Assembly: GCA_015179025.1 (NCBI GenBank)
Contig: WHUX01000005.1
Coordinates: 806,001-870,000 of the forward strand
Direction: 5' to 3'
DNA from: Terfezia claveryi
Lineage: Eukaryota; Ascomycota; Pezizomycetes; Pezizales; Pezizaceae
DNA: 64,000 nt
The translations under genes and the position numbers were made by a program. Below the pieces are notes generated by a model, which made no database searches, was not told where the DNA came from, and saw only the letters and a list, made by a program, of their open reading frames with translations. Below are positions 3,969 to 49,915 of the stretch, in pieces (the stretch's first letter is position 1; each line of letters begins with the position of its first letter).

Positions 3969-4091
3969 AGGTTTCTTCCCCTTTTGGCGGGGGACTTGTA
4001 GAGGGTGCTAACCAGACTAAAGGTTTCTTAGTCTGGCTAGTCTCGATCGAGTCTGGCTTGCACTATCCCCTCCTTAAGAGGAAGGTTTCTT
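3969..4091. repeat. Two TAGTCTGG mini-insertions between three copies of AGGTTTCTT
   Basis: The 9-mer AGGTTTCTT occurs at 3969-3977, 4021-4029 and 4083-4091. The first interval (43 bp) ends in AACCAGACTAA. The second (53 bp) starts AGTCTGG, the preceding T being shared with the repeat. The inserts are therefore in opposite orientation, and the triple repeat is what two successive insertions, each duplicating 9 bp, would leave. Confidence 0.7.
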
Positions 4092-4282
4092 AAGTATTTG
4101 TTTAGCAATGCATAACCACATCGTGCGAATTGTTTTCATCCAGTTCACAACAAATTTCAGCTCGCAAGGTCTTAGTTTGCTCATCTATCTCGATCTATCA
4201 AGATAAATTTTCATCTTGTTGTCCCTCCCACTACCATGCCACCCAAGGAGATTTAACAAGAGTGGGGAAGATATTCGCACTC

Positions 4283-4332
4283 AGCGTGCACCTCTCTACT
4301 CGAGGCTTGTGCCAACCAGACTAAGCGTGCAC
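4283..4332 (-). repeat. 32-bp TAGTCTGG-type insertion, 9-bp duplication
   Basis: The 9-mer AGCGTGCAC is repeated perfectly at 4283-4291 and 4324-4332. Between them lie 32 bp whose reverse complement begins TAGTCTGGTTGGCACAAG. Confidence 0.8.
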
Positions 4333-4355
4333 TACATTTTGGTTGCAAGATCTTA

Positions 4356-4400
4356 GTATCGATCTAGTCTGGTTGCACTACCCCTCGCAAGGGATCGATC
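4356..4400 (+). repeat. 27-bp TAGTCTGG-type insertion, near-perfect 9-bp duplication
   Basis: GTATCGATC at 4356-4364 and GGATCGATC at 4392-4400 (8 of 9 identical) flank 27 bp starting TAGTCTGGTTGCACTACC. Confidence 0.65.
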
Positions 4401-4463
4401 AGCATACCTAACAGCGTGGCATTAACCAGACTACCCTCCGGGTAACACGGACTACGGTACTGT

Positions 4464-6078
4464 AAAATGCCCTCCACTTAGTGGAACATGTCTAAGATAC
4501 AACACTAAACTACTGTACATCTCTCTCTACTAGACACAATACCTTGATGCTTGGCATGACTCTATGCAAAGGCCTCTTTTTTATGCTAGACTATCACGCG
4601 CCCTATCATGCGCTTCACCAGTTCAGCATACCATACCTAGCATACCCAGCATACCCAGCATACCCAGCATACCCAGCATACCAGCCCAGCATAACCTGAT
4701 AACCGACACGCAGCATACCCGTCCCCATACCCAGCAGCATACCGCGCCCATACTCAGGAGCATACCGGCCCCATACCCAGCACACTTCGCAACATACTTA
4801 AACTACCTAGTACATGGCGATATCTCTCAGTGCTCCTGTAGTAGGCTTGTGCTTCGGGGGGGGGCCGCTAATCTGTTCACGCATATTACACGCTCCTATA
4901 GCTATACCAGTACCTAGACTTCATGCGCTTTTTCTATGGCTAATATACTATGTATGATTGCTTTATTACTCCATACACTCTTATAAGCAGGCATGCTTTA
5001 GATTACGTGCTGCGATAGCTGTTGGTTTGATATGCTTTGTAGTTACCGTCCTGTTTCAGGGTAACCTGGTGTTCCCCACTCGCTTCTATTGCATTTGGTA
5101 TCTTTAATTGCGGCTGCTCCTATAGCATTTGGTATCTTTAATATGTCTAAACTACTGTAGTTTATATTTTCGCATAGTTTGTAGGTGCGGGTGTCAGAGT
5201 AAACCTATACACAGTGTTGAATGAACTTCAGAGTGAGATCTTACCATAATACCATACTCTGTAAATAAACCTCACTAGAAGTACAAGTTGGGCTATTACT
5301 TACCAACATAGAGAGCACATATATGATCTTTAGCCGAGGGCGAAAGTATTTAGAATAATCATCTCTATATATTTTATGATTATACATCTATATATTTTGG
5401 TGCTATGTACGGAGTATATTCTACTAAAATAGGCAATTGGGAACACAACTACCTACCGACAGAGCATGCCTGGTCATACGCCAAGAGCCACAAGCACAGA
5501 CCTGAGCGAAGATTACCCTGAAGCGTGATTGTAACTACGGAACCGCATCAAACCAACAGATAACTATCGCAGCGCGTAATTTAAAGCATGCCTGCCTATA
5601 AGATTGTATGGAGTAATAAAGCAATCATACATGGTATATTAGCCATAGAAAAAGCGCATGAAGTCTAGGTACTGGTATAGCTATAGGAGCGTGTAGGCCC
5701 CCCCGAAGCACAAGCCTACTACAGGAGCACAGAGAGATGTGCTGGTTGAGTATGCTGCGAAGTGTGCTGGGTATGGGCGCCGGTATGCTGCTGAGTATGG
5801 GCGCGGTATGCTGCTGGGTATGGGCGCAGTATGCTGCTGAGTATGGGGACAGGTATGCTACGTGTCGGTTATACAGGCTGGGTATGCTGGGTTGGGTATG
5901 CTGGGTATGCTAGGTAGGGTATGCTGAACTGGAGAAGCGCATGATAGGGCGTGTGATAGTCTAGCATAAAAAAGGGGCCTTTGCATAGAGTCATGCCAAA
6001 CATCAAGGTATTGTGTCTAGTAGAGAGAGTGGTTTAGTGTTGTATCTTAGACATGTTCCACTAAGTGGAGGGCATTTT
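4464..6078. mobile_element. Foldback palindrome FB1 (1.6 kb)
   Basis: The left arm (about 4464-5070) reappears as the reverse complement in the right arm (about 5505-6078). Examples are AAAATGCCCTCCACTTAG at the left edge against CTAAGTGGAGGGCATTTT at the right edge, and the segment around 4930-5000 against 5580-5650. Each arm contains a diverged minisatellite of GCATACCCA-like units (about 4620-4790 and, inverted, 5730-5935). The loop, about 5070-5505, is AT-rich and apparently non-coding. Sequences ending AACCAGACTA lie just outside both edges, but I could not define a target duplication. It resembles foldback elements; whether an enzyme moves it or it arose by inverted duplication is open. 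Confidence 0.75.
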
Positions 6079-6299
6079 AAAGGTTTTCTCCATTTTAAAG
6101 GTTTTCTCTTGTGCCAACCAGACTACCGGTTAGATTGTGCCTTATATGAATGCTATCAAGTAGAGTGGAGGAACATACCAGTTAATGGACGTATTATTCA
6201 ACTGGCTTTTTTAGGCCTCGCTCGGACAATTCTTAATTTTTCATGTACAAAGCTCGATATAAGAACCACTCTTTTATAAGCAAGAGATGTTGATGCAGG

Positions 6300-6423
6300 T
6301 AACTTACTACAAGTTTTTATAGGGGTTTCCTATTGGCCACCAAGCAAGCATCCACCTGGGTTTCTAGGTGGCTTATCATGGTTCCCTTACTTGGATCGCA
6401 TATGAGTACTAATAAACCAAAAA
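6300..6423 (+). repeat. Diverged LINE/SINE 3' stem-loop tail
   Basis: Contains the first stem-loop (CCACCTGGG...AGGTGG), the second stem-loop region ending CATATGAGTACTAATAAA, then an A-rich tail. The order matches the 3' ends of the LINE copies elsewhere in the window. No coding part remains. Confidence 0.55.
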
Positions 6424-6594
6424 GAAAAAGCGTCTAGAGATAAGTAGAGTGAGATGCTACTCTTGAGATCTGTTGTGGGGTCTCCAGGCTCCTAGATATG
6501 TTTAGCAAGCTTCGCGAGGGATAAACTACTTTCATATATATTTTTATATCTTTATTTATAGTAAATTATTTATAATTTACTAAATAAATTGACT

Positions 6595-7060
6595 ATGTAG
6601 ACACCTTTTTTTTAAAAAAAAAAAATCGTTACTGGTATGCGGTCACGTTAGGGGGACCATGACGAGCCGGCTCACCCGGAATCCCGGGCGTATTATTCAA
6701 GAACAAGGCAAGTTATTCTGCCAGGTCCGCGCTAAATACAAATAACAAATAAATATCGGGTATGGTCGGGGTCTCCATGCTGCGATTACCGGCCCACCTG
6801 AATGAACATGAAGGAGGGGAAAAAGGGATTTGAGACCGAGCTGAAGAAACTATAAAATAGAACTTGAACTGGGAACTAAAGGAACTCGTAAAATAAACCG
6901 GAAATCGGGAACTAAGCGAACTTGTAAAAGTAAACTGCGGGTTAAGGCTCTCGAGAACAGAATTATGGAACTCGTGAAAGCAGAATAAGGAAACTCGTGA
7001 AATTTAAGGGAACTGGTAAAAATAGAAAGTAATCGGTGACTCATGAAGATAAAATTGGAC
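6595..7060 (-). repeat. LINE 3'-UTR fragment in reverse orientation
   Basis: Reading the minus strand, motifs of the form CACGAGTTCC / TTTACGAGTTCC, typical of the LINE 3'-UTRs here, are followed by a diverged 3' stem-loop and then an A-tract (T/A run at 6604-6625). It is strongly diverged. The neighbouring 6530-6600 is very AT-rich. Confidence 0.5.
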
Positions 7061-7474
7061 CGCGCGGGGGTTAGGTGGGCTCATTATGTAGTCACCTGAA
7101 AATACTTAAGTGATGTTTTTAGTGATTTGATCATAGACCCGAATTATGATCCTCATAGGGCGAGTTTGACTATCCCAACAAGATAATCACAAATTCTTGA
7201 AACGACTTCTCAAGAAGCATCTTAGTCTGGGTAAAAGTTACCCAACTAGGTATAATGAAGGTGTTGGGTGCATCTTGGTATATTTGTAGTGCTGAAAGTG
7301 CAAACTACATAAAAGAAGACTATGCTAACACTGCCTTTAAGGGCTTTATAAAAGGGCCGTTGTTCCCGAGGCAACTGACTACCTGTACTTAAAACCTAAC
7401 TCAATGCGTTACCTAGTACCGGTAGACATGAATACTTACTTTGGGCAGTGCCTAAAAGTTACGAAGCGTGAGGA
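7061..7474. other. Intergenic, no gene seen
   Basis: No recognisable gene or repeat boundary. Confidence 0.3.
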
Positions 7475-7507
7475 CTCGTTGATTAGTCTGGTTGGCACCT
7501 CGTTGAT
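7475..7507 (+). repeat. 15-bp TAGTCTGG mini-insertion with perfect 9-bp duplication
   Basis: CTCGTTGAT occurs at 7475-7483 and again at 7499-7507. Exactly 15 bp, TAGTCTGGTTGGCAC, lie between. Confidence 0.85.
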
Positions 7508-7972
7508 GAATGTGAATGTGAAGCTTTCTTAAGTTGTGACCTTACACAGCTGGGGCGAGATTGCCTAGACGCTGTCCTGTGCCTGGTTGGCCGGATTCTA
7601 AACTTGTGGGAGTGGCACTTGAGCAGATGCAACGAGATTTGTTCAGACGACAAACATGCGGAGCAGTTTGTCTGGCTGCACAAGCCCTAGTAAGGAGCCG
7701 AGCAATGCTAATAAAGTTATATCTCCACCTAGAGTTCGACCTGCCTCTGATAAATCCACAAGGAAAAACAGTACTGTAGTCCCAGGCCAGGAGGGGTCGT
7801 GCCAACTGGGCCAGTCCTACTAAATCTCCCAGAAAATCCATCGTTGAAGAATCACCCTTCCCCACTCATCCAACGATCGAAACTTCCTTCCAACACCTGC
7901 AACATCTCTGATCTCGATAGCACGCCTGCCAGGCATCCTCCGTTCTCTCTTCCACCACCACACTTCAGTTCA

Positions 7973-8783
7973 ATGTCAGACAGCCAGGCATCAATAGCTG
8001 GACCACTGGCGTCTGCAATCAACAACCCGGTACAGGCAATGCAGCCTACAGGTACTATTTTCCTTGCCTTGATCTCACTATTTTCTAATCTCATACCCAA
8101 CCTCAAGTCACATCCTTCAATCTCATTACTAACAGCGCTTTTTAGACTTGAAAGCCATACCTGTACAGATGGGTCTTTTTGCTCATTCTAACTTCCAAAA
8201 CTGTTTCATCCAAGTCAATGGTAATCCATTTACCATTTCCCAAAACTCAGTACCTGCCATCCCACCTCCTATAACGCACCATATCAATGTTCCGGCCGGA
8301 GAGGTCAGATTTAATCCTGCTGCACCCCAACTCCACTCTATAGCAGGAGCAGCCAGACCTAATCCAGCTGCAACCCAAAACCCCTCTTTACCAGAAGCAG
8401 CTAGACTTTATCCTGCATCCCATGTCCCCTCTCCAGCAGGGGCGGTTGGACTCGATCCTGCTGCACCTGAAACTTTCGGACTTCAGGCTAAGCCTGTCGT
8501 TTCAACAACTGAGGTTGTTCAACCCTCCGCATCGCTCAAGGAAAATCAGGGACATTCGGTGTATGAAAAAGGCCAACGAGATGCCCTCGTTCGACTAATT
8601 ATGTACGTGGATCAGCTCGGAAAATCTACAGCCGACAAACTCCAGGATGAAGAGAACCGTCTCTGTGAGCGCCTACAACTCACTGCAGGAGTGCACCCAC
8701 ACGAGCTTTTACTCTCTGATCAATACGACTACATTTTCGGTTATTTGATTGAGGTGGTCATGACAAGGAAGGGTTTGTATTGA
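7973..8783 (+). CDS. Two-exon hypothetical protein, 238 aa
   Basis: I do not recognise the family. The model is ATG at 7973, exon 1 7973-8051, intron 8052-8145 (GTACTA...TTTTAG with an ideal TTACTAAC branch point), exon 2 8146-8783 ending TGA. The spliced length, 717 nt, is in frame. The protein starts MSDSQASIAGPLASAIN. Residues about 75-140 contain three degenerate repeats of roughly 20 residues with NPAAPQ/GAARPNPAAT/LDPAAPE cores, rich in Pro and Ala, hence probably disordered. The last 75 residues (from about SVYEKGQRDALV) are charged and likely helical, including a KLQDEENRLCERLQL segment. No signal peptide or membrane span is evident. Two of the three frames are closed, and the branch point argues for a real transcript. 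A chance open frame cannot be excluded. Confidence 0.55.
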
Positions 8784-9165
8784 GAAAGGTTTTGATGCCT
8801 TGGCCTCAGCTTGGGAGTTTGAGTTTGGGCTGCGAAGGCACGTGGGGATTAACGGTTCCATTGTATAAGGAGTCTGGGCACATGTATGAGAAAAGGGTGG
8901 TGAGATCCTATTTTGCTGTTTGTTGGGCTTTGGGGAAAATAATAAGTTATAGCTCTTACATCTGAGATGGAACATTTGTTTTTCTGTGTTGTCACTGTTG
9001 ACAATTCGCATTGCACTCGCCAGGCTAGTCTGAGCGACTGACTGTATCTAGCTTTCGCTATAGGATTGATATTCTGTGTTGCGGAATAGATATCGTTACG
9101 GTAGGAAAATATGGCTGTCCTAATAGTTGCAAGAGCACTATCTAGTCAATAGGGCCCCCATGACA
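8784..9165. other. Intergenic, no gene seen
   Basis: No recognisable feature. Confidence 0.3.
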
Positions 9166-9169
9166 ATTA

Positions 9170-9505
9170 TACGCTCAGTAGCTCCATTCGTCCCTCCAGG
9201 ACCCTCCACAAAAGGCAAGCAGCCAGCAGCTCGCCACCATACCCTGTTGATCCAGGATACGCTGCTATGAAGGCACAGGTTCAACATTTAGAAGCAGAAA
9301 AGCAAGCTGCACTGGCGCAAGTACAGCAGCTTCAGTAGACATAGACTACTCATACCGAATTTATTCAGCGAAGTGCAGCAGATATCCAGAATACAGCAAA
9401 TGCTGCCGCCAATAAACATGCTCAACTATCGAATGATACACAATCTGCACTAACTCAGATCCAGAACCTCATTATTACTGGACAAACGGACGCCGGTTGT
9501 TGAAA
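9170..9505 (+). pseudogene. Degenerate coiled-coil (gag-like) coding remnant
   Basis: One frame reads as a Gln/Ala-rich coiled coil: AAMKAQVQHLEAEKQAALAQ, then, after two TAG stops that look like former CAG codons, EFIQRSAADIQNTANAAANK and a LSNDTQSALTQIQNL segment. It lies just upstream of the LTR-like repeat at 9675, so a gag remnant of a retrotransposon is plausible. No zinc knuckle or protease motif is present, so assignment is tentative. Confidence 0.35.
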
Positions 9506-9674
9506 GAGAATGATTACTTCTGCCAGAAGTGAAGCTCGTCTAACGGACATATCTATGTAGTCAATACGAGGCTTGACAGCATTTCCTCCTCTTCATGCCT
9601 ATACGCGGATTCACATACATGAATTGGGAGGCTACCCCAGTGCAAGCCATGCAATTCGCTGCTTGGACACCCCA

Positions 9675-10138
9675 TATAGGAATAGGAATAGCAACAGGCG
9701 AGCGGAGAGATCCAAGTGTCCACTGAAGGAAGGTATGAACAGAGCGAGTTGGTCACTGGAGAGAGGAATATGAAGAGAAGAAGATGTTCGTATACACAGT
9801 GAGTGCATGTATTGTATTGAGTGAAGTGATGACTTCGTTATCCCGAAAAAGTAGGAACATGAACGAGATATATATACATGTATGAGCGTACATCTAAAGC
9901 AGGAAGAAGAAGAAGAAGCACATGTCCGTTGCAAGCCGTATAGCTAGGCATGAAGCAACGATATGGGTGCGAGCAAGGTGTGAAGTACGCAATATGATGT
10001 GCAAGCCGCTGCGAGCCGTATAGCTAAGCAGGAAGCACACATATGATGTGCAAGCCGCTGACGGCTACATATGGTATAGGTAGCAAGGCATGGGCGGAAT
10101 GAACGGAATGTACTGCATTCATTCTAACACCCCTTCTC
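9675..10138. repeat. LTR-like repeat R2, copy 1
   Basis: About 464 bp, closely similar to 21787-22250 and ending at the same CATTCTAAC boundary. It contains GATATATATACATGTATGAG, usable as a TATA region. The segment ACCCC adjoins both ends, consistent with a 5-bp target duplication. On the minus strand it begins GTTAGAATG, as many LTRs begin TGTTA. A solo LTR is the best guess. Confidence 0.55.
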
Positions 10139-10193
10139 AGCACATACTTGCTAGACTCAGGCACCTCCTGTTTTCTTAAAATGTACGTTATTA

Positions 10194-12378
10194 GGCCTGG
10201 GCACGAGCCGGCTCGCGAGAATTGCGACAAGAATAGATAACTGCCTACGCTATATATCTGTATAGGCCATGGAAATATGAAAGACTCAGAAATACGAAAG
10301 ACACGGATATAAACAGACATGGAAAAAGGAAAGGAATCAGTCATCATCCTCAACACCTGCAATCTCCAGTGGCAAATCTCCCTCCATAGCTACTTCATTC
10401 AAATGGGCAAGCAGCTGTTCCTCCACTATAAGCTCTTCCGACGTTATCTCCTACACTCCAAGCCATGCTTTACAGCACATAATTGCATTCATTATATTTT
10501 CACTAAGGCAAGACCGGCGCTTATTAAGTATCTGGCCTGGTAGTTCCAGTAATAAATAGTTAGATTATTCTAATAACCTGGAAGAATTGAACGTACCTGC
10601 AATGGAAAAAACTTGCTCAGATGGGACGCTGGTGGCAGGAACAGCAAGAAAGTCGCGCACCATTAAGGAGAGATGTGGGTACTTAGATGCATAGGTTTGC
10701 CACCATTCGATTGACTTGACAGTTCGCCCTTCCGGAGGTTCTTCCAAATAAATCTCAAGTTCAGAACGTGTATTAAATGTGACAGTAGATTGTTGTGAGC
10801 CAAATACAGCGTCCCAATAATCATCTAGTGAATCACTAGCACAAGCATCTGGTATAGGAGGACGGGATTCTTCGGAAGTAGGAGAGGGTGCATACTGTGC
10901 TGTATATATGTGATATATACTTTGTTGGGCAGATTGGATCCATTACTCACACCAGGATAGGTTGCGAAATATAGTCAATTTGCATCGAGGATCCAAGATT
11001 GTAGCGATAGCTTGTGCAGCGCCTGTTTTACTATGATATTCATCAAGTTTTATCCAAGCATTAGTTACTGCCTGCAGTAATTCTCTGTCAGGTTCTGATT
11101 CTCGCAACTCATCAGCTAAAAGCTCTAATCGAGTTGCTAGAACACTAAAATAAGGTAGTTGTAAGGAGAGAGTTGGATATGAACTTCCAGAGAGATGTTG
11201 TGTCACTTTCACAAAAATCTCCATTGTACTTTTAAGACGTTCAAGCAGCTTCCAATGTTCTGCTGAAAGTATAAAAGGACGTAGAGTATCTTCGAGCTAC
11301 CGTATTAATTCGCAACTAAGAAAGTACTACTCGGCAAGACAGTATTCGCGTATAAGACAGGGGTAAAACAGCCTAATTTTGGCCGAGATATCCGAATCGT
11401 GTTTAAGACAGCAAATTTTTCTTGTAAGACAGTAGTATAAGAATGTCATTCTTTCATTCCTCACGATCACTTGTTACAATGTCAATTCCGCAGGCACCTC
11501 GTCCTGGACCCAGTGCGCAAACCACTGGCAACTACCTCCTGAGTCTGAAGACCAACTCGACCTGCCAACAGACACGGAGGATGAAAGTTCTGACATTGAG
11601 ATTGTGGATGATGCGGAGGAAGCAGATGGAAGTGACAATGAGCAGGGAGATTACATTACTGAAGAAGAGGCTGTACAATATGCTACAATTACACTTGGAG
11701 AGGAGATCGTGTAAAAAGATATCAATTATGCTACTGTGTCGTTCCAGAATTTTTTTTTTTCCCTGGAAATTCTCTTATAAGAAAGTATCTCGTGTTTAAG
11801 CTAGTATCGCTTATAAGACAGTAAATTTAAGGCCCCTCCGACCGCCCGTTCGTGAATAAGACAGCATTCTTAGTTGCGAATTAATACGGTAATATACTGC
11901 ATGTACAGCTGGTCGTAACTGAAGTAGTCGTGAAAGCATATCATGTGTTGAGTTCCATCTATATAAGATTAGTATAATACTTCTAATGGTATATATATAC
12001 TTACCTTACTTGCATATCTAAAATTAGCTTAATGGAAGGTAACTTAGCTGCTGTTTATGCTTCAAAACATTCCCACAATATATTTGAAGCTCAAATTTTC
12101 CGAATAATCTGACTAGCATGACTAAATACTATAGAAATTAAATTTGCTGAATTAGATGTAAGACTCTCATTATCTTCATCTTTTAGAAGAACCTGAAGAT
12201 GCGATAAAACCTGTTGAGCAGCAGGATTAATAATATGAGCCATAAATCATACTTGACTATTCTGTAATATAAAACCAGTAAGAGGATCCTCCAAAATAGA
12301 AAGCATTTTCGTATTAATAGAAGCACTATCTAAAGTAATAGTACGAATATAAGAGGTAATCTGAAATCGACCAAATAA
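10194..12378 (-). pseudogene. hAT superfamily transposase, decayed and split
   Basis: Minus-strand remnants appear in the order of a hAT transposase. At 12378-12000 are ITLDSASINTKML and FMAHIINPAAQQVLSHL, matching the conserved Asp and 'aHiinLa' region. At about 11960-11905 is RWNSTHDMLSRLLQLRP. At 11297-10943 is LEDTLRPFILSAEHWKLLER, then AIATILDPRCKL. At 10747-10565 is the hAT dimerisation motif DFLAVPATSVPSEQVFS. The last coding traces reach about 10330. Several in-frame stops (TGA, TAA) disrupt it. A putative terminus AGGCCTGGGCACGAG lies at 10194-10210. The upstream end is lost where the pogo remnant begins, and a TA-flanked MITE sits inside (11300-11889). Not functional. Confidence 0.85.
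11300..11889. mobile_element. 590-bp pogo/Fot1-type MITE nested in the hAT transposase
   Basis: Terminal inverted repeats of 23 bp, perfect, starting CCGTATTAATTCGCAACTAA. The TA at 11298-11299 is duplicated at 11890-11891. The hAT reading continues cleanly across the two TA sites (RPAVHAVYY on one side, LEDTLRPF on the other). Inside, one frame keeps an acidic tail, DTEDESSDIEIVDDAEEADG, which may be the C-terminus of the parent transposase. Confidence 0.9.
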
Positions 12379-13800: not shown

Positions 13801-13984
13801 CCAATACCAGGCTTGGGATAACGAACATCGCAATCAGAGTCAGAGTGACAAGGAACAACAAGCGACTCGAACTGAGCTTCCTCCGGGTTAGTGAGCCCTC
13901 CAGCAGAGAATGAAATTTATCCATCACCCCGACCAGACTACCATCATCCTATTCCGAATAGATTTCCAACTATTGCTGACGGCC

Positions 13985-14034
13985 AACCCAGCTTAGTCTG
14001 GTTGGAACGACCGCTCCTGTGGAGGAACCCAGAC
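13985..14034 (+). repeat. 32-bp TAGTCTGG insertion, imperfect 9-bp duplication
   Basis: AACCCAGCT (13985-13993) and AACCCAGAC (14026-14034), 7 of 9 identical, flank 32 bp beginning TAGTCTGGTTGG and ending in a small CTCC/GGAG hairpin. Confidence 0.45.
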
Positions 14035-14039
14035 TATCT

Positions 14040-18137: not shown

Positions 18138-18713
18138 TTAGTTGGGAGACCACTATGGCACTCTTACCATTGCTACCGAAAGTGGCACTCTTGGCATAGA
18201 AGCAGTGAGAAGCATTTTTAGCATTGGAAGCGTAACTTCAGGGAAGCTTCTCTATAACTTAACAATACCCTCTCCACTTCATCCTTCCTCTGAGTGATTC
18301 TCCTGGTTCACTGTTCGTCAATACCAATTTATATCATACAAGGAATAGCCTAGCTTTCCACCCCTCCGCCTTACTCAAAAGACCATTTCTACAGTCGTTC
18401 ATATATCTCGTGCAAATAGCATAATGGATTCTCCGTCCAGGCCCTCTGCTCTAGGGAGTGGTTATGGTGGGACACTGGCTGAGCCAAACGGTCCCTCCCC
18501 AATTGCTTTGCACCCAGTGACAGCAGAGACAGTCAGGGGGTGGGATTCTGATGAGTTGTATGCTTAGTTGGCAGAGCTAGAACATCCACCACTCCGCAAG
18601 CAGGCGACAATAGACAAATTTCTGCAAGCAGAAGTTGCTGGAGACGTGTTTCTCACTGCAACAGAGAAATAGTTTACTGTCGAATGTGGGCTTCCAGCTC
18701 TCTCTCACTCAGA

Positions 18714-19980
18714 AGGTAATTTTAGACCCTAAGTCAGAACGCTCTAAGCAGTTAGGTCCTTGGGCAGCAGGTATAGGCTCAATACGAGAAGAAGGATGGA
18801 GAGTCTGTTATACCGATGGTACGGGACGAAAAGGAGTGGTACCTAGCGGAATCCACAGTGAGGATCAAACAGGAGGCACCCCTAAGGACTACGGGGGCTA
18901 TCTGGGAGACCACGCCACAGTAGCGGATGGCGAATTATTCGCGATGCAACTGGCATTACTCAATGAAGACTCACCCATGATATCGATCCTCTCGGACTCC
19001 CAGGCCGCAATTCAAGCAGTCCTCAATATGAGCTCAGGCTCCCCACCCAGATCCGGGATCGAAATAGGCATCAAGTCCCTTATCACCACGAACCCGTATA
19101 GGGACCTCCAGATCTCGTGGGTCAGAGGCCATTTAGGCATCCCAGGCAATGAAAAGGCGGACCGGCTCGCTAACTTACAGTCCCACCTGGGGGAATTCAC
19201 ATGCCAGGAACAGACAACAACCGAAGGAGGGCTACGCGCAGCCTCTAAAGCGAGACGAAAGGAAGCAAGAACAAAGGCGGGCTTCGGGGTAAGAAGAGTG
19301 GAGTGGAATCGACAAGCCCTGTCAGCCTACACCTGGCTAAGAACTAACAGAGGCCCGCAACGGAGCTGGCTTCACCATATCGGCAAGGCGGAATCAGCAG
19401 CATGCACATGCGGTCACCCCACTGAGACCGGAGAACATATCGTCTTCGATTGCCCACGCTTCAACCGGATACGCAGCGGTTTATTGGGGGGGAGGAGGAG
19501 CTGGGAGGAGCTCGACGAACTGGATTGGAGGAAAGAAGGGGAAGGAGAAGAGAGATACGAAGCTACGGAGGCCTTCTTCAGCCTTCTATACCATGAGCTT
19601 ATGTAGAGAGCTGTCGGGAATGCCGTTGCCGTCGGGAGCTGGAGATGAAGAGAGAGATTTACGAATTTTCACGAGTTCCCTTGCATTTCAGTCCCATTTA
19701 TCTCAGTTCCGTCAGTTTTCTACGCGGTTATTTCCAGTTTATCTCAGCTTCTAGTCCTTCAAGTTCATCATTTCGCAGTCGAGTACCAGTCAGGCTTCCG
19801 GGTCATCGGCTAGTTCCGTTAATGACAGCATGGGGCCTTCTGCAAGTTCGTGTATTTGAGTTTGCGTGGGGTTGGCAGACTTGCCTCTCCCTTGAATCCA
19901 CCGGGTTTCCGCGTGGCTCCTCATAGCCCCCCTAACGGGGCTGCATAGGAGTACTGAGTATTTAAAAAAAAAAAAAAAAA
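18714..19980 (+). mobile_element. LINE-A copy 1, 5'-truncated: RNase H domain, CCHC motif, 3' stem-loop, A-tail
   Basis: The open frame to 19606 encodes an RNase HI domain. Visible are CYTDGTG (first catalytic Asp), DGELFAMQLAL (Glu), ILSDSQAAIQAV (Asp) and WVRGHLGIPGNEKADRLA (His and final Asp). A CTCGHPTETGEHIVFDC cluster follows, the CCHC-like motif at the C-terminus of many fungal non-LTR elements. The reverse transcriptase is missing. The 3'-UTR ends in two stem-loops (CCACC...GTGG; CTCCTCATAG...CATAGGAG) and a run of A to 19980. RNase H residues are intact, and this is the best preserved copy. It lies inside the Crinkler-like gene. The exact 5' junction is uncertain and I saw no target duplication. 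Confidence 0.85.
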
Positions 19981-34919: not shown

Positions 34920-35011
34920 GCCGGTGTAGTGTAATTGGTAACATACCAGAGTCTAGAATTAGACGTGCACCTCAGCGGTGTGGGATCTTGGTTCGAATCC
35001 AGGTGCCGGTA
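34920..35011 (+). tRNA. tRNA-like gene, 92 nt, anticodon not assigned
   Basis: Seven acceptor pairs form between GCCGGTG and TGCCGGT, with wobble pairs. An A-box-like D-arm (TAGTGTAATTGGTA) and a clean T-arm (CTTGG-TTCGAAT-CCAGG, containing the B box) are present, and a TTTT run follows. Between D-arm and T-arm lie two hairpins, GTCTA..TAGAC and TGCAC-CTCAGCG-GTGTG. The second would give a CAG (Leu) anticodon, but then an extra hairpin sits before it. Alternatively it is a type II or intron-containing tRNA. I could not choose. Confidence 0.55.
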
Positions 35012-35808
35012 TTTTACTTTTTGCACTTTTTTCTGTGTCCTTCCGTTCGGGGATAGGATGCATGCCCTGGCTGCAAGAGACAAGGCGAGATGGAGTTCCG
35101 ATGGCACGAGACTAGTTCCGATAGACCCTCATCTACAAAGTATTACGCAAGTTATGTTAGCTGAGATGCGTAGACTTGGTTCAATCGAAGTTCCACCCCA
35201 GACTACTCTCAGCAATGGCTCAAACCTTTGGTACACGGTGCCATCACCTGACAGTCATAGTTCCTCTGACTGAAGTCTGTAGTGACTGCATAAAGTGTCG
35301 ACATTCGTGTTAGGCCTTCGCAGTCCCCACGCGGGAGGGGGGAGGACTCTTTTTGGCTGAAATGCATAACTTCCATGTCCTCCTGGATGAGCCAAACAGC
35401 AGCCAGAGCTCATTTATTTATTACTCTCTTATTAGAATTCTGAGATCATCAGGCAAGAGAAAGAGTCATGTGATTGGGAGTCCGCAGCAGAGAGCTCCGC
35501 CGATGTTGTCTCGGTATTGTTTCGATGATGTTGTTTCGATGTCTGGGGTGGTGAAGGCCTAATGCCGTCGATCGTGTGGATACTTTTATACACCCACTGC
35601 CCTATTAGGCTTGGCATCCATCCGTGTCCCGTGCCCTCCTTCTAAGCCATCGATCGTATCATACACATAAGTCACGAGTGCAGGTAACTACAGCTGGTTC
35701 TCTTGAGCCTATCCACGATCCCCAATTCTGAGCTTACACGGTATCATTCCTCCTCATATCAAGTCCATCCTCGAGCACTACCTCATAATCTGCAACAGGC
35801 TTACTTTC
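35012..35808. other. Intergenic, upstream of the 35.8-kb gene
   Basis: Short frames only. A minus-strand frame over the tRNA-like gene is its antisense. Confidence 0.3.
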
Positions 35809-39123: not shown

Positions 39124-39169
39124 GGGTGTATTTAGTCTGGTTGCACTACCCCTTGCAGAGGGGTGTATT
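39124..39169 (+). repeat. 28-bp TAGTCTGG insertion with perfect 9-bp duplication
   Basis: GGGTGTATT at 39124-39132 and 39161-39169 flanks 28 bp starting TAGTCTGGTTGCACTACC. Including the downstream flank, CCCCT and AGGGG can pair as a hairpin. Confidence 0.85.
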
Positions 39170-42532: not shown

Positions 42533-42565
42533 CTAGTCAACGTGCCAACCAGACTACTAGTCAAC
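42533..42565 (-). repeat. 15-bp TAGTCTGG mini-insertion, perfect 9-bp duplication
   Basis: CTAGTCAAC at 42533-42541 and 42557-42565 flanks GTGCCAACCAGACTA, the exact reverse complement of the insert at 7484-7498. Confidence 0.85.
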
Positions 42566-42599
42566 CGTGGTACCGCCAACCACATGTATCATGCGGTAG

Positions 42600-42770
42600 G
42601 GAGACTACCAAGATAGGACTAGCTTAATCACAAAAAGGGTAGACTGGGAGATACCGGAAAAGGTATGGGCTAGTCTGGTTGGTATGGGCCAGAAAAGGAC
42701 TATCTCAAAAAGGCAACCATCCAATGATACCGAAAGAAGTAGTCAAAAATTCTGAATACCCATTGCGTGC
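42600..42770. repeat. Dispersed repeat R4, copy 1, with a 10-bp insertion
   Basis: Homologous to 49680-49915 (AGACTGGGAGATACC, AAAGGCAACCATCCAATGAT, CCCATTGCGTGCTG). It holds TAGTCTGGTT at 42671-42680 between GGTATGGGC at 42662-42670 and 42681-42689. The other copy has a single GGTATGGGC there. Confidence 0.85.
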
Positions 42771-42776
42771 TGCGGC

Positions 42777-42873
42777 GGTCTCCCATAGTCTGGCGGGCAC
42801 CTAGTCTGGCTAGCACTAGCCTCTCGTAGACTAGTGCTAGCCAGACTAGCGGGCACCCCTCGTAGGTCTCCCA
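42777..42873 (+). repeat. Nested TAGTCTGG insertions, two perfect 9-bp duplications
   Basis: Outer: GGTCTCCCA at 42777-42785 and 42865-42873 around a 79-bp insert starting TAGTCTGGCGGGCACC. Inner: GCGGGCACC at 42793-42801 and 42849-42857 around a 47-bp insert. The inner insert is a hairpin with 18-bp perfect inverted ends, TAGTCTGGCTAGCACTAG. Without the inner one, the outer insert would be 23 bp. Confidence 0.9.
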
Positions 42874-42925
42874 CCGCAGTAAATTGGCACTAAACCTGCT
42901 AGCGTAGTCATGATCTAGTGCCGAC

Positions 42926-42972
42926 AGTTAATTGTAGTCTGGTTGCACTACCTTTCGCAGAGGAGTTAATTG
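42926..42972 (+). repeat. 29-bp TAGTCTGG insertion, perfect 9-bp duplication
   Basis: AGTTAATTG at 42926-42934 and 42964-42972 flanks 29 bp starting TAGTCTGGTTGCACTACC. Another TAGTCTGGTT begins two bases further on (42974). Confidence 0.85.
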
Positions 42973-43247
42973 GTAGTCTGGTTGCTAAACCTGGTAGCGT
43001 AGTCGCTACCTCTTATAATCTAGTGCGGCTCATATGTTCCAGACCTACTAGAGTAGTGACTGCCACCTTCAGTCCCATAACTCCAAGTGCGCTAAACCTA
43101 AGTTCTATACCACTAAGCCCATCAGGTTATTAATTTATGTTAACATTCTACCAATAATGCTGCATCCCCGCGTAACATTCTTAGCTGTGCCAGTATGTGC
43201 TACAGAATAATGCGATTACTAGGATTAGTCGGATATTACTCCATACT

Positions 43248-43275
43248 GGTAGCCCGTAGTCTGGTTGGTAGCCCG
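43248..43275 (+). repeat. 10-bp TAGTCTGGTT insertion, perfect 9-bp duplication
   Basis: GGTAGCCCG at 43248-43256 and 43267-43275 flanks exactly TAGTCTGGTT. Confidence 0.85.
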
Positions 43276-43439
43276 CATAAGTGTAACCCACTAAAGGCTC
43301 AGAGCCAATTGCTAGCGTGCAACCTTGCCAAAAATAATAACGTATGCATGCATCAGGTACATATTCGTGATTTTTGTTGACGTCGCAGCTAAACTGCAGT
43401 CAGTTAGACGATAAGTAGGCTAGGCTGCTGCACAACCCA

Positions 43440-44185
43440 TGCTCGTCACGTAGCCTCGTAATAACCAATCTGTTGTCTCTGGGGGGTCTGAACCAGATCG
43501 GGTAAGTTGGTAGTGTTGTCACATGTCCTTTCAGTTTGCGACGTCACGAATGCTACAAATAATAATGTATTAACCTGGTTCTACGAGGCTACGTCACGCC
43601 ATATGTTCGTGCTGATTATTGTTGGTGTCACAGCTCATATGCACTATGCCATAGAAGGAAAATCTATCCGTATCATTACCACTGACCACAAGGGGCAGTG
43701 GCTACTGCAGTAGGCTTAGCTTGTTATCTGCACTAGATCAGAAGAGGTAGTGACTACGGTAATATGTTTCGCGCCATTGCCGCCTGTTAACTAAACCTGC
43801 CAGTCTCGGTGCCCTCCAGCTCCTTTATTTGTTGACGCTCTGCACTGCGATCCATCTTCTCCACCCTGTTCCTAGCAGTGTGTCAACTGGTCTTCCTGTC
43901 GAACATCCCGCGAAATTAGCTAAAAAGTGATCGAACTTCTTTAGCTCCACCTTCATCGTTGGTACTTCTCCTGTTTTTCCATCCACAGGACCGCTTTTCC
44001 GTTTATCATCTCAATTTCCTCCTCCAATTTATCTTCCTCCTCTCTTAGCTGGCGTGAATTTCTAGAATTAAAACCAAAAGTCTTGGCAGACAACACTAGC
44101 CTCGTAGTAACTCTGGGGGTCACAAATCACGAATGCTACCACGAACACTACAATATATTAACCTGGGTACGAGGCTAGAGTTACC
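43440..44185. repeat. Repeat R5: GTAGCCTCGTA inverted-end elements
   Basis: Two hairpin-ended segments: 43450-43593 (GTAGCCTCGTAATAACC ... GGTTCTACGAGGCTAC) and about 44097-44177 (CTAGCCTCGTAGTAAC ... GGGTACGAGGCTAG). They share CACGAATGCTAC and a TATTAACCTGG approach to the right end. A lone right end is at 45250-45270. Target duplications are not clear. Confidence 0.5.
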
Positions 44186-44208
44186 GTGCAACCAGACTAA
44201 GAGTTATC
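44177..44208 (-). repeat. 14-bp TAGTCTGG-type insertion, near-perfect 9-bp duplication
   Basis: AGAGTTACC (44177-44185) and AGAGTTATC (44200-44208), 8 of 9 identical, flank GTGCAACCAGACTA. Confidence 0.65.
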
Positions 44209-45640
44209 ACAAATTAATCAACGGTAAAAATGGTGCATAGCAATGGATTCAGCTGCAAAGCAGATGACAGTTGTATTGAAAGGCTTCTGAGCGAGGTTAT
44301 CGCGGAGGCTTTGGAGGATGCAGCAGCGGTGGACTTATTGGTGCAGTGAAGCAGAGTGCGAGTGCGAGTGCGAGTGTGAGAGCAAAAAGCGTATGCGAGC
44401 GCGAGCATATGAAGTGTTCGGTCAAGAGTAGACGGTCAATTGAGTCTATCAAGAGAAGCTTATTGATACATGGGTGCTCTGAGTGCTCGTATATAGCCAC
44501 GAGATCAGAGTAAAGTAAGGAGATATCTATTACGCAGCTAGCGATAATATCATGCAAGGTAAACCCGTTGCGACAGATATTGTGGTCATGAGCAAGGAAA
44601 GTGAGGCATATGGAGTCATGAAGTACATGAAGAAGAAATAAGAAATAACGTAGGGGTCCTTAGCAAGGTAGCAAGTGTTCGCTAGGTATCAGCATAAGTT
44701 AATAACGAAGAGACTTAACTAGGTAAAGTAAGGAAAAAACCGTTATTTACAACAAGTTGCCATTCACGGTCGGGTATCGGGTAAGAGCAACGGCAAGGGA
44801 AAAGGCGGACGCCAGATTCAAATACCGAGTCCAGAAAATGCTCCACCGACACACAAGACACCGGAGCCAACACATTTACCGCCACTAGCCAGCACACCAG
44901 CAGTTTCAAAAATAAGAATGACTCCAACGTTTTTGAAGGAATGCGTTCCTTTACTGATGTGAGAAGAGGATTGCAAGGGATAGCCGAGGGTTTGGCGGAC
45001 GTATTCTAATGAGGAGAATTTGAGGAGGAGCTTAGGTCATTCGCAGAACTGAAGGGGAGGATGACAAGGGAAGAGTGGGAAATAGTCGGGGAGTTCCTAC
45101 TGTAAGCAGTTGCACCAATGTAGGACTCGTGGGACCGGCAGAGGCACAGAGCGTTATAGAGGAAATTCTAGGAGAGTATGACTGTGAGGGACATAGGAGG
45201 GTAGCAGGTTCGTGACCTCACAACCAACTCCCCCAATAATAAACAACAGACTGGTTCTACGAGGCTACGGTAACTCTAATTATGCCAAGGCACCAGGGGC
45301 ATAGTCGCATACCACTACATAACCTGGCTAGTGGCGTCCTTGGCATCCGTAATCTTTCACAGCAAACGTTAGAACTTCTACGAGCCTCATGGTGCGGTAA
45401 CCCCTTCTTGGCCTTGTCCTGCTTCTGCCACCACAACCTCCACCAAAACCCTCCTCCACTACACCCTCCTTCACCCTCCTTCACCATACCCTGCTCGCCT
45501 ACACTTTCTCAGACACATTTTCTTTTTAAGTTCTCAGTTTGTCTCCTTACTCTCAAAGAGGAACACAAACGGACAGCAAGCACGCTCGGAGACGTGAACA
45601 GCCAAATAGCCGCAAGTGTAGCGATTCGATCAAAGCAACC
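44209..45640. other. Unassigned region
   Basis: A plus-strand frame around 44750-44960 reads SPENAPPTHKTPEPTHLPPL and then meets stops; it may be a retroelement relic. The ATG frame from 45282 runs into LTLKEEHKRTASTLGDVNSQ before the retro-insertion at 45659. I cannot show either is a gene. The second could be an upstream exon of the gene at 45870. Confidence 0.3.
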
Positions 45641-45644
45641 AGTA

Positions 45645-45781
45645 AGTGCCAAACCTAGCAGATTAACTTGCCTTGTCCTGAAGCCACCTGGGTTTCCGGG
45701 TGGCTCTTCATGGCCCCCTTGGGGCCGCATAAGAGTAACAAGTATTTAAAAAATACAAATGAAAAAAAGTGCCAAACCTAG
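45645..45781 (+). mobile_element. Tail-only retro-insertion (109 bp), 14-bp target duplication
   Basis: AGTGCCAAACCTAG at 45645-45658 and 45768-45781 flanks both stem-loops (GCCACCTGGGTTTCC...GGTGGC; GGCCCCCTTGGGGCC) and an A-rich tail. It begins CAGATTAACTTGCCTTG, i.e. at the start of the first stem-loop block. It landed in an existing TAGTCTGG insertion. Confidence 0.88.
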
Positions 45782-45801
45782 TCTGGTTGGCACAAACCTA
45801 G
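45773..45801 (+). repeat. TAGTCTGG mini-insertion split by the tail-only insertion
   Basis: CAAACCTAG at 45773-45781 and 45793-45801 brackets TCTGGTTGGCA; with the shared TAG this is TAGTCTGGTTGGCA. The boundary is ambiguous because TAG ends the flank. Confidence 0.6.
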
Positions 45802-45869
45802 CCTCTAACCATTTTACTAACTCCGTTCCCACAGATACGGATCAGAAGTTAACCGGCCACTCCGGGAAC

Positions 45870-47733
45870 ATGTCGAAACCAACTGATGATTACAGTAGCC
45901 CCCCAAATCAACCGGAGGCCCCCGCAAAGTCTATTGACCTACATTCTACTGAAGTCCTCCTAAAATTTACAAGATCCTTTGTTCTGCGATGGCTGGAGGT
46001 CATTTCAGATGGCATCGAAATATTTGACGGCTTACAGGATGTTCAGTGTAAGCACCTGGAGGCATTATGCAAAGAGCTATTTGCAAATTATTGCGTATTT
46101 AGCGAGGCAGTAAAATCGTGCCCTACATACCCACCCCTCGAAACAATACACAAGGGACCCATCTTCAATGTTGACTACCAGGCCTGGATACAATATCTAC
46201 GATGTCCCAGATGGCCCGGTGAAAGTGCCCGGATGCAGATTATCAGAGATCGATGTTCCGTATTACTAGGTGAACTAGAAGAAGGTAGAACCATTCTAGA
46301 GGGTGGTGGGGGTGGAGCAGCACACGGAGCATCAACCGACCAGACGCTGCTTGTCGAATTGGCATACAAGGAAGTTGATGGAGTCTGGGCTGCACGGGCA
46401 AAGCTCAAATTTGCTCACAGTAAGCGGGGACTATCACATATTGTGGCCTGCACTGACAGGTTATCCAGCGCACGACCAGAGGTTCCTGACCCCCACAGAG
46501 GAGTTACAATTTTACGGATTTTCAGAAGAAAATGCACACAAGATGTTACTTGAAGCGGAGTTTGTTGAGGATGAGGACGATGCATATGAGATGGCATTAA
46601 CCCATGTGCGGGCAAGACAACAGATGAAGAGGTTTGGTTGGTTAGGTAAATTACCCTAGAAACCAATATAAAGTAGATCAAGCTCACGTCATTTTTAGAG
46701 ACCACGGAGCAGCTTGTAGAGGCAGCGAGGGAAATTGGGATGTCTAGGCGGTTCTGCTCTGTCGTGGGCGATTCAGCCGAGTTTCAGTGGATTGCCTCCC
46801 AGCCGCTGTGGAAATTGATCGTGGAAAACATTGAAGATGTACATCTATTCTATATGGCGTATGTATCATTTCCTACTGTAGACTACTGGATTCTGACTTC
46901 AAGAAAACAGCGTTCTCAAGATGTCGAGCAACCAATCAGAGGACAGCTCAGATATACAGGACCCCACCCAAGTCGGCAGCGCAAGCATCTTCCAACCCGA
47001 CATATGGTCCACGCAAACCCCTGAGAATCATGCCGGTATAGATGAGGACATGAATGAAGAAGAGTTTCCGCTACTGGAGTTAGCCATAACCGACCGGAGG
47101 GATGCTCCAGAGCAGTTTATCACATTGTACAAAGGAGGGCTCAGCACTATGAAGCACTTCCTGTCATGGACATCAACTACGGAAGCTCGAAACGTCACAG
47201 AGATAGAATCGCCGCCACCATCCGACTTCTGCACTTTCCCAGCCATCTACTTGACACCCCACAAGGAACTAGCAGAGTATCATGCAAACCTGCGCAGACG
47301 CATATCCGGACTCGGAAATGACGATGTGGGAATTTTGACTATATACATAAGGCAATTCGAGCACGAGACCTTAGAAGGTGATACTTGGAAAAATGTAAGT
47401 AACCCTCATGAATAAATAACCTGGCTCTGACGTGTGGAGTTTGTTTTTCTAAACCGCCTTTATAAACCCTTGCCCAAAGCATGGGATCAATGGACCAGGG
47501 CCCCGATCGTGAAGGGCGAGGTAGCCGGTCCGAATGCGTCAGTAAGTGTAACCATTTCAAGATGGCAGATAGCACATGCTAACCATTCTCCATAGTATAC
47601 TGCGAATCAAAACTGGCAGGAGGTGAGGAGGTTAAATGTTTGGGATATACCGTCACCACTGCAATACCGCTTTCTTAGATGTTCTTATTCTCTCCTCGCA
47701 AATGTTGAGGCTCAATACGGCAGGTTACATTAA
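45870..47733 (+). CDS. Six-exon orphan protein, 539 aa, apparently intact
   Basis: Function unknown. Exons: 45870-46419, 46460-46645, 46699-46858, 46911-47394, 47440-47541, 47596-47733 (TAA). Introns are 40, 53, 52, 45 and 54 nt, all GT-AG; the third has GTATGT and CTGAC, the fifth a TGCTAAC branch. All phases join, giving 1620 nt. Residues 1-30 are polar (MSKPTDDYSSPPNQPEAPAK). The next 200 are helical and Cys-containing (LLKFT RSFVLRWLEVI, CKELFANYCVFSEAV). An acidic stretch follows (EFVEDEDDAYEM), then SQPLWKLIVENIEDVHLFYM. The C-terminal half holds FITLYKGG, SDFCTFPAIYLTPHKELAEY and VGILTIYI. That order loosely recalls ADP-ribosyltransferase-like folds, but I do not see a certain catalytic set. 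The start could lie in an upstream exon. Confidence 0.7.
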
Positions 47734-48350
47734 ATAACAACGTTCATGAGCTCCTTCATCCTGTATCTCTTGGCTAAAAGCCCCGGCCGGTCAGAATCTT
47801 TTTTTTTGTTAAGTCTGTACTGTACGCAAATGGTATATTCCCTGAAGGGAATATAGCGTGGTAATACCCTAGTCTGGTTGGTACCGTATTTTAGCGATAC
47901 GGAAGTCGTATATCCGGCCGTACGTCGTATAAGTACGGGTGTCCATAGAATTAAAAATACGTGCAACACTCTATTACATTCATGGGAAGATCTGATAAGA
48001 TTGAAATCTAAGATACGCATGAACGCCAAGCACCAAGGTTGATTAAGCGGACTTAAAATTCCAGAATTGGCCCGTGCCGGCACAGCAACATCGAATGGTT
48101 ATCATCACGTAAGCTGCACTTCGCGAGGGCAACGTTGTCACACTAGGGTGGCATGAGACTAACACTAGGGAATTGGTGTTCTCGTACCCAGATCCTAGCC
48201 TGATCTTGGCATTCGCTTCTGCGATTTAATCAGAAGAGAGTCACTCCCTCCCTAGGAGCGGTCGGGTTCGAGACTAGAGTCACTCTAGGCTATCTATAAA
48301 GGCAAATTGAGAAGAAACCGAGTCTATAATTATATACATAATGTAAAAGC
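47734..48350. other. Intergenic, no gene seen
   Basis: Contains one degenerate TAGTCTGGTTGGTACC motif at 47872-47887. A minus-strand frame (47730-48083) is unassigned. Confidence 0.3.
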
Positions 48351-49197
48351 TCAAACCACTGGGGCCGAATTAGGACATGAATAATTTCTCAAGCCAGTAT
48401 GGCAATAAAGCAGTATACAATTGCCCTTCCTTTTTGCATTGGCAGCGACAGTCTGCACATTGGCCCTTGCATTTACAGCAAACCACAGATCCAGTAGAAG
48501 CCAGGCGTGCAACTTTATGAATTGACTTTGGCTTTTGGGTTTGCCATGTTGATGGGATAGACTCAAGGTAATTTGGTCTAATACTAGAAGGAAGCCGCTC
48601 CAATTCTCTAGTAGGATAGTATCGATCTACTAAGCCATATTCACAATATAGCTGATGTCGGTCAGGATGGCTTGTAGACAACTCTGCAAAAAATCTGGCG
48701 ATGGTCAGTAGAAGCTCGATCAATACTAGGAATTCGCAAGCTAACGAGATCTCCTACTGTAAAGGTATCTATTTTGTGCTGTTGAGTATATCGATTCGCC
48801 ATTTGCTTGCGAGCTGTCCAAGTACGTTTACGTACTTTTGCTAGCATAACATCAGTGCTAGGAAGTTGAACATTACGCAGCTTATATTTATTCAATGCCT
48901 TCCATTGCAGTTTGATGGCTAGCAAATCACCTGCTGGGGCCTTTAAGTTTGGGTCTCGAAGGTAAGCTTTTATTTTACGAGATCTAGTTCTATATTAGTC
49001 ACTACATACTTGAGTAGATTGAAAGAATTACTTCTCGGAGGTCAACCGAGATTTACTACTTGTTGCATGCAAATAGTCTTCAAACTTAGTACGTGCAGTA
49101 CCGGAGAATGCTTCAATTGCACTTTGAGATGGAGCGGCACCTAGGGCGTGAAATTGATTGAAATCAATATCACTATCATAATCAGAAACTGACATTA
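48351..49197 (-). pseudogene. KRBA2/Ginger-type integrase, internally deleted
   Basis: On the minus strand, ATG at 49197 starts MSVSDYDSDIDFNQFHALGA and stops near 49030. After about 90 unassigned bases, KYKLRNVQLPSTDVMLAKVR and TVGDLVSLRIPSIDRASTDH appear. After a frameshift near 48690 come LYCEYGLVDRYYPTRELERL and CCKCKGQCADCRCQCKK. The 'VGDlV.l.IP..DR..td' block plus Cys-rich tail is the C-terminal signature of KRBA2-like integrases related to Ginger DNA transposons. The zinc-binding and DDE core are absent. This is an internal-deletion relic. Confidence 0.65.
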
Positions 49198-49401
49198 TAG
49201 TGAGTGTAGAAATGTTGTGGTATGCTGGTAATATTATGATATGTAGAGGAAGTTGTATTGAAGAGTATGCTGCGTGGAAGTATATTTCTGTTATATTGAA
49301 TGAAAATCTTTACGAACTACCTCTAGCGAACTACTTAGAGGTTTTATCATTATTTGTTGCGTTGAAAGAAAGTCGAGGTTTTACTGTAATTCAGTAATGG
49401 A

Positions 49402-49479
49402 CTGGTCCGTTGCGGAATCCAGTCCATTCTGGAATGGACCAGTCTATACCAGTATGGACTGGATTCCGCAACGGACCAG
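49402..49479. repeat. Perfect 26-bp inverted repeat hairpin
   Basis: CTGGTCCGTTGCGGAATCCA (start of the left arm, 49402-49427) is matched by the reverse complement at 49454-49479, all 26 bases. The 26-bp spacer contains a further GGACCAGTC copy. Confidence 0.85.
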
Positions 49480-49679
49480 AACATATACATTTGACGACCC
49501 AACACAGCTGGCATTTGGGATGCAAGCCAGATGGGGCTACTCCGAAATTTTGTTTGCAGTACTGCATGTGAAGGGCTCACCTCAGTGCTACTGTTGGGCG
49601 TCGTGGAACCTACGAGGGTCTGATCGAGACTACGTGGGACTGGGGAAACTCAATCCAGAAATGGTAACCAGACTAAAAT

Positions 49680-49915
49680 TGGTGTGGTAGGGAGAATACC
49701 AAGATAGAACTAGCTTAATGACAGAAAGGGTAGACTGGGAGATACCAGAAAAGGTATGGGCCAAAAAAGGATAGTCTTGATCAGAACCCTCTACAATAAC
49801 TACGAGGGTTCTGATTGAGACTAAAAAAGGACTACCTGTAAGATTTCTCAAAAAGGCAACCATCCAATGATACCGAAACAAGAAGTCAAAATTCTAAAAA
49901 CCCAATGCGTGCTGT
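49680..49915. repeat. Dispersed repeat R4, copy 2, with a 51-bp palindromic insertion
   Basis: Homologue of 42600-42770. At 49772-49822 it carries a 51-bp insert with about 19-bp inverted ends (TAGTCTTGATCAGAACCCTC at left). AAAAAAGGA lies at 49763-49771 and 49823-49831; copy 1 has a single AGAAAAGGA there. Confidence 0.8.

Follow-up and report, generated by a model that had tools for sequence, protein, structure and literature searches.

The 64,000-bp window analysed here belongs to the genome of the ascomycete Terfezia claveryi (contig WHUX01000005.1; C445:806001-870000 of a 72.6-Mb, 794-contig assembly). It carries a family of short inserts that begin with TAGTCT and lie between two copies of a 9-bp target sequence. 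A first-pass annotation had described sites of the form 9-mer, insert, same 9-mer, and this pattern was borne out. The motif TAGTCT[GTC]G occurs at 34 sites in the window, with an exact 9-bp flanking repeat at 12 distinct inserts (starting at 4029, 4292, 7484, 39133, 42542, 42671, 42786, 42802, 42935, 43257, 48247 and 49772) and a repeat with one mismatch at six more (3977, 4038, 4365, 13930, 35104 and 44186). The 9-mers cited earlier are all present. The inserts measure 10, 11, 14, 15, 27, 28, 29, 30, 32, 43, 47, 51, 53 and 79 bp, the last value being that of a nested pair. The earlier inventory had overlooked TAGTCTCG inserts such as 48247-48276. The sites are as follows:

3968..4090, no single strand: opposite-orientation pair on a common target, 3977-4019 (minus, 43 bp, one mismatch) and 4029-4081 (plus, 53 bp), with AGGTTTCTT present three times
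4038-4048, nested in 4029-4081: 11-bp TAGTCTCGATC insert, one-mismatch duplication
4283..4332, minus: 32-bp insert 4292-4323, 9-bp duplication GTGCACGCT
4356..4400, plus: 27-bp insert 4365-4391, duplication GTATCGATC/GGATCGATC with one mismatch
7475..7507, plus: 15-bp insert TAGTCTGGTTGGCAC at 7484-7498, duplication CTCGTTGAT
13921..13949, minus: 11-bp insert 13930-13940, one-mismatch duplication
13994..14036, no strand assigned: ambiguous site, readable as a 32-bp insert whose duplication has two mismatches or as a two-ended form of 43 bp that lacks one
35095..35123, minus: 11-bp TAGTCTCGTGC insert 35104-35114, one-mismatch duplication
39124..39169, plus: 28-bp insert 39133-39160, duplication GGGTGTATT
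42533..42565, minus: 15-bp insert 42542-42556, duplication GTTGACTAG
42592..42779, plus: copy A of a duplicated segment (paralogous copy B at 49683-49921), source of the empty-site comparison
42662..42689, plus: 10-bp insert TAGTCTGGTT at 42671-42680, duplication GGTATGGGC
42777..42873, plus: nested pair, in which insert 42786-42864 (duplication GGTCTCCCA) encloses a 47-bp near-palindrome 42802-42848 (duplication GCGGGCACC)
42926..42972, plus: 29-bp insert 42935-42963, duplication AGTTAATTG
43248..43275, plus: 10-bp insert 43257-43266, duplication GGTAGCCCG
44177..44208, minus: 14-bp insert 44186-44199, one-mismatch duplication
48238..48285, minus: 30-bp TAGTCTCG-type insert 48247-48276, duplication GAGTGACTC
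49763..49831, plus: 51-bp two-ended near-palindrome 49772-49822, duplication AAAAAAGGA

Abundance of the inserts and origin of the duplication

Comparison with random octamers had been proposed as a test of the pattern, and a clear excess was found. In an unbiased sample of 264 kb (the window plus 20 pieces of 10 kb from contig C1), the 9-mer ahead of the insert recurred exactly behind it at 21 of 83 TAGTCT[GTC]G sites, and with at most one mismatch at 31 of 83. The corresponding values for 60 shuffled octamers (379 sites) were 0 and 6; a palindromic insert was counted on both strands. When the best repeat was taken at each of 136 sites, selected loci included, its length peaked at 9 nt, with 30 sites; lengths of 8 and 10 nt were found at 8 and 9 sites, respectively. 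A hunt for any 9-mer repeats spaced 9-60 nt apart returned TAGTCT as the top edge hexamer (22), followed by GCCTCA (12); 276 of the approximately 302 such repeats were without TAGTCT.

The inserts with 9-bp duplications are confirmed as real, abundant and unusual. The 15-mer TAGTCTGGTTGGCAC is present genome-wide in 1432 + 1453 = 2885 copies, and its reversed control in none. The genome-wide pattern TGAA-5N-TAGTCTBG-N2-32-TGAA gave 15 matches, 11 of which were read as classic forms. With CATT as the second word there were seven matches, none readable as a CATT-closed insert and one (C1:396290) lying on a genuine TGAA insert. Base preference within the duplication is weak (first base G in 17/39, p 0.004; last base C in 12/39, p 0.17). 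The inserts are spread across many contigs among nuclear genes, for example a SYF1 homologue on C1 (locus L027) whose best PDB match is 9l5r_I (1037.6 bits), ahead of 5mqf SYF1 (698) and 9esh cwf3 (668). The structure 9l5r comes from the filamentous ascomycete Chaetomium, which makes an ascomycete source likely.

Two empty sites were read by eye from the duplicated segment, the aligner having put the gaps elsewhere. In copy A the 10-bp insert TAGTCTGGTT is accompanied by a second GGTATGGGC; the corresponding place in copy B (49753-49761) shows GGTATGGGC once. Conversely, two copies of AAAAAAGGA enclose the 51-bp insert in copy B, and the corresponding place in copy A (42691-42699) shows AGAAAAGGA once. 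The earlier proposal that the duplication is made at insertion is supported, since the target 9-mers are unrelated, the length is fixed at 9 bp and two empty sites exist. Self-comparison of the L002 and L007 paralogues yielded no further clean empty site. Copy B also holds approximately 11 extra bases relative to copy A (CCTGTAAGATT, 49835-49845). An identical 15-bp insert with TGAATCATC on its left occurs at both C1:396290 and C68:590606, and was perhaps copied together with its flanks.

Anatomy, orientation and clustering

The outer end of the inserts is fixed and the inner end varies. Lengths were taken from 60 inserts with duplications (41 exact), drawn from random loci and from loci picked by the 15-mer TAGTCTGGTTGGCAC or by CCTCGTAG, with palindromes counted from both strands. 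The distribution is bimodal, with 21 inserts of 10-18 bp and 33 of 26-36 bp; a further six measure 40-53 bp. All subfamilies, as grouped by the analysts, have in common TAGTCT and a C-rich stretch. They include TAGTCTGGTTGGCAC-AAGC- or -AACA-CCCTCGTAG(AGG), TAGTCTGGTTGCACTACCCCTCGCAG(AGG), TAGTCTCGATCAGACCCTCGTAGAGG, TAGTCTCGTGCCCAGACCCTCCAGAGAGG and others. An exact duplication was found at 11 of 20 fetched CCTCGTAG sites and a one-mismatch duplication at four. At these 15 sites the insert lengths were 28 (five), 29 (one), 30 (two), 31 (four), 36 (two) and 40 bp (one, two-ended).

The inner end of the commonest subfamilies is sharp. TAGTCTGGTTGGCACAASMCCCTCGTAG is present in 111 copies, of which 49 continue to AGG and six reach three bases past AGG (approximately three being estimated by chance). 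Several subfamilies end in a small stem built from different letters. Among 29 distinct inserts, which are related rather than independent, the terminal stem has a mean of 3.0 bp, against 1.55 in shuffled sequence, and reaches at least 4 bp in 13. The common long form halts at 28-31 nt and often closes a mini-hairpin there.

Most copies are one-ended, and one orientation dominates: TAGTCTGGTTG-N4-14-CCTCGTAG occurs in 172 copies, the opposite palindrome end form (CCTCTACG) in nine. It follows from this ratio that a palindrome of approximately 50 bp is not the usual donor. Random halves of such a palindrome are ruled out as the source of the inserts by the same ratio and by the 111, 49 and 6 end counts. 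A longer donor whose terminal repeats are identical would still fit the orientation bias. Convergent pairs are few (27 at 24-39 bp with 12-mer ends, 47 at 40-70 bp with 15-mer ends and 14 at 71-101 bp), and some may be two separate inserts. Set against the 2885 copies of the 15-mer, these numbers leave the suggestion of complete, two-ended miniature Mutator-like elements (MULEs) unsupported for most copies.

The 40-70 bp set comprises 43 distinct two-ended strings. The analysts' own subfamily list allowed an assignment of both arms for 14, of one arm for 19 and of neither for 10. The arms belong to different subfamilies in four of the 14 doubly assigned strings, which are candidate chimeras as judged from their arms (C157:168310; C424:10480 with a copy at C434:242345; C1:725085; C568:63325). 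Some palindromes with the same subfamily on both arms may be snap-back products.

The inserts are clustered. With convergent pairs merged and all TAGTCT[GTC]G sites considered, duplication or not, 12 neighbour pairs lie at most 100 bp apart against 2.8 expected, and none of 2000 random placements gave as many. Two adjoining inserts of different subfamilies were seen at L053 and at L071, their duplications shifted by one base. On C108, one 9-mer apparently flanks two successive inserts, the final copy being visible for four letters only. The nested pair at 42786 and 42802 indicates repeated activity.

Donor, mechanism and rival explanations

A Mutator-like origin had been suggested from the duplication length. 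The 9-bp stagger is consistent with it, and the genome contains at least 21 MULE-domain matches. No TAGTCT-bounded MULE was seen in the 3.2-kb MULE-domain loci, several of whose inverted repeats reach the locus edge and whose ends may lie beyond it; for these reasons, the link to MULEs stays inferential. Only MULE transposases were searched for. Long inverted repeats are found in many of these loci. At L034 (C773:255169-258447) and L045, a MULE-domain gene lies between long fold-back-style inverted repeats with short tandem repeats; the MULE-domain open frame of L034 encodes 575 aa. Both were rejected as donors: TAGTCTGGTTGG is internal to their inverted repeats, which measure at least 333 bp for L034 and 210 bp for L045; it lacks a duplication and is not terminal.

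Searches within the 10-kb pieces and the window revealed no larger element with these ends in the 264 kb. A scan reaching up to 8 kb onward within each piece from the 53 sites without a short duplication detected no element bounded on both sides by TAGTCT; exact 9-mers recurred at a distance three times, near the chance number (estimated at no more than about 1.6). A donor of approximately 600 bp was considered from convergent pairs at C1:773645 and C2:360382. By eye these have no interior in common and look like separate inserts. TAGTCTGGTTGGCACAAG gave no matches in viral contigs.

The preferred reading, given a probability of roughly 0.4, is that a MULE-like transposase with a 9-nt stagger inserts nothing but short fragments from the tips of transposons. 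We infer the type of transposase, the shortness of the pieces on arrival and every enzymatic step from the form of the inserts. The transposase, MULE-type by its stagger, would cut the target with a 9-nt offset, and the 3' end of the transposon (...CCAGACTA-3') would be joined to the break. The recessed target 3' end would fill the 9-nt gap and then copy TAGTCTGG... inward. Copying would end at 28-31 nt, often at a mini-hairpin (e.g. CCTC-GTA-GAGG), or sooner at 10-15 nt. The new end would then join the other target side, its 9-nt overhang already filled in. The product would be a single piece of 10-18 or 26-36 bp; in rare cases two pieces would lie head to head, for a total of 24 to approximately 61 bp.

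A more specific version, a natural counterpart of tagmentation, is considerably doubtful. It supposes that a transposase carrying free, unlinked end fragments of approximately 31 nt breaks the chromosome, and that each repaired break retains one adapter or two, sometimes of different subfamilies. Thousands of 10-61 bp insertions could arise in this way without a complete transposon moving.

Several observations weigh against insertion of short end pieces. An accepted duplication is lacking at 52 of the 83 unbiased sites and at 5 of the 20 CCTCGTAG sites; age or chance octamers may be the cause of such sites. The 26-36 bp class of 33 inserts includes two that extend to 36 bp (L066 and L068), and these are probably copies of one event. 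A 4-bp end stem is absent from 16 of the 29 distinct inserts, and the halt of short pieces at 10-15 nt, ahead of the hairpin, is unaccounted for. The C568 candidate chimera (62 bp) holds a third, internal motif copy and may be compound. In 10 of the 14 doubly assigned strings both arms are of the same subfamily, as a transposon with two ends, or snap-back, would give. Neither a transposase nor a donor bearing these termini turned up in the sequence searched, and the MULE loci seen carry other inverted repeats.

The strongest rival, possible rather than probable, treats the inserts as excision scars. A conventional transposon whose terminal inverted repeats span 31 bp or more would insert with a 9-bp duplication and subsequently excise; sister-chromatid repair would abort after 10-15 or 28-31 nt, and a single terminal piece would remain between the intact duplications. 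One-endedness, intact duplications and the dominant orientation are all covered, two-sided remnants of 24+10, 24+6 and 28+12 (L004, L017, L069) fit as well, and the stop could be set by a hairpin in the new strand. In form, the inserts would fit an excision footprint with a terminal-repeat remnant between duplications. Duplications are often damaged in excision scars, yet here they are mostly intact where tested (11 of 20 exact, four differing by one base). Moreover, the 15-mer has 2885 copies and an unexcised donor was unseen in the 264 kb, the 28-31 nt form is recurrent, no parents were found, and two ends of different subfamilies were assigned in 4 of 14 strings, from arms only. When the MULE Muta1 was assayed in yeast, excision from constructs lacking donor duplications now and then left behind as much as 13 bp of terminal repeat (PMC5225508). 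Excision footprints and the products of abortive gap repair share with the present inserts a duplication and a few bp of terminal repeat. With donor duplications, Muta1 excision was approximately 90% precise (PMC5225508), so that such scars would be expected in a minority. The balance tips slightly towards direct insertion of end fragments rather than excision followed by aborted repair, though this is unproven.

Copying of a hairpin is improbable. An RNA or single-stranded DNA of approximately 31 nt (3' end ...CCAGACUA, 5' mini-hairpin) would be copied at a staggered break in the manner of target-primed reverse transcription, with short forms as early stops. One fixed and one variable end, the usual maximum near 31 nt and the end stem would follow. 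In target-primed copying the duplication usually varies in length, whereas it is fixed at 9 here; two tRNAs were the only Rfam matches above threshold in the window, and no source gene was found.

It is just as improbable that the unit of approximately 28-31 bp is a complete non-autonomous element with unlike ends (TAGTCT... / ...CGTAG(AGG)), the 10-15 bp forms being later deletions. Ends at 28 and 31 do recur inside subfamilies. However, the inner-end sequence varies between subfamilies, and exact duplications also surround the 10-15 bp forms, so that later deletion would need to halt exactly at the duplication every time. Chance repeats, low complexity or an assembly artefact have a negligible probability and are refuted by the control (0/379 exact), the many contigs and the empty-site pair.

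Known systems and other features of the window

In one-ended transposition of the Tn3 family, one end is fixed, the other is variable and the target duplication is normal. This resembles the present inserts in the fixed and variable ends, and differs in its bacterial host, 5-bp duplication and kilobase inserts. In Tn5 tagmentation, an artificial laboratory procedure, free short transposon ends are joined to the target with a 9-nt stagger. The short ends and stagger are alike, and to our knowledge the procedure has no natural counterpart. MULEs and the miniature inverted-repeat transposable elements (MITEs) derived from them have two ends and usually span hundreds of base pairs or more. The inserts described here, in contrast, are mostly one-ended, measure 10-36 bp, lack terminal inverted repeats at both ends and have no donor found. 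Their 9-bp duplication falls within the 8-10 bp that characterize MULEs and these MITEs. A duplication of unrelated targets, 8 or 9 bp for Muta1, is shared (PMC5225508).

Yeast mitochondrial GC clusters are described as short mobile hairpin inserts with reported mergers and with AG or ACT flanks, AG for the 42-nt GC42 (PMC4478555). Hairpins and a short flanking repeat are common to both, whereas the present inserts, unlike GC clusters and double-hairpin elements, are nuclear and flanked by 9 bp rather than 2-3 bp. In Annulohypoxylon stygium mitochondria, 44 strain-variable inserts of 12-106 bp have been reported, with hairpins in 31 of 44 and some in tandem (PMC6140425). These are likewise short and hairpin-rich; they are mitochondrial, and the accessible portion of that paper contains no mention of a 9-bp duplication. 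Nuclear one-ended insertions of 10-60 bp with 9-bp duplications were not found in the open PMC literature among the matches listed. TAGTCTGGTTGGCAC gave no literature matches, and TAGTCTGG was absent among the matches listed for a looser query. What is new here is that the inserts are not random palindrome halves, that one orientation dominates, that the common long form stops at 28-31 nt, that two-ended inserts are few and include candidate chimeras, and that the sites are clustered.

If the preferred reading is true, transposases can reshape a genome through thousands of insertions, probably overlooked by standard repeat annotation, each one lengthening the sequence by approximately 19-45 bp and leaving a precise duplication. 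Strain comparison would then offer a direct test of abortive or one-ended transposition in eukaryotes. The 9-bp duplication provides a simple search signature for other genomes.

The window has further features. An inverted repeat of approximately 600 bp (4460-5067 and 5510-6082) is 83% identical and abounds in repeats resembling CAGCATACC. The stretches 57270-57911, 59414-60235 and 18635-19606 hold retroelement-like domains (integrase zinc-binding, aspartyl protease and RNase H). A tandem array at 60589-63580, with offsets that by reading are apparently multiples of 23 bp, is accompanied by an inverted copy. The two tRNA genes identified with Rfam are located at 524-597 and 34920-35011.

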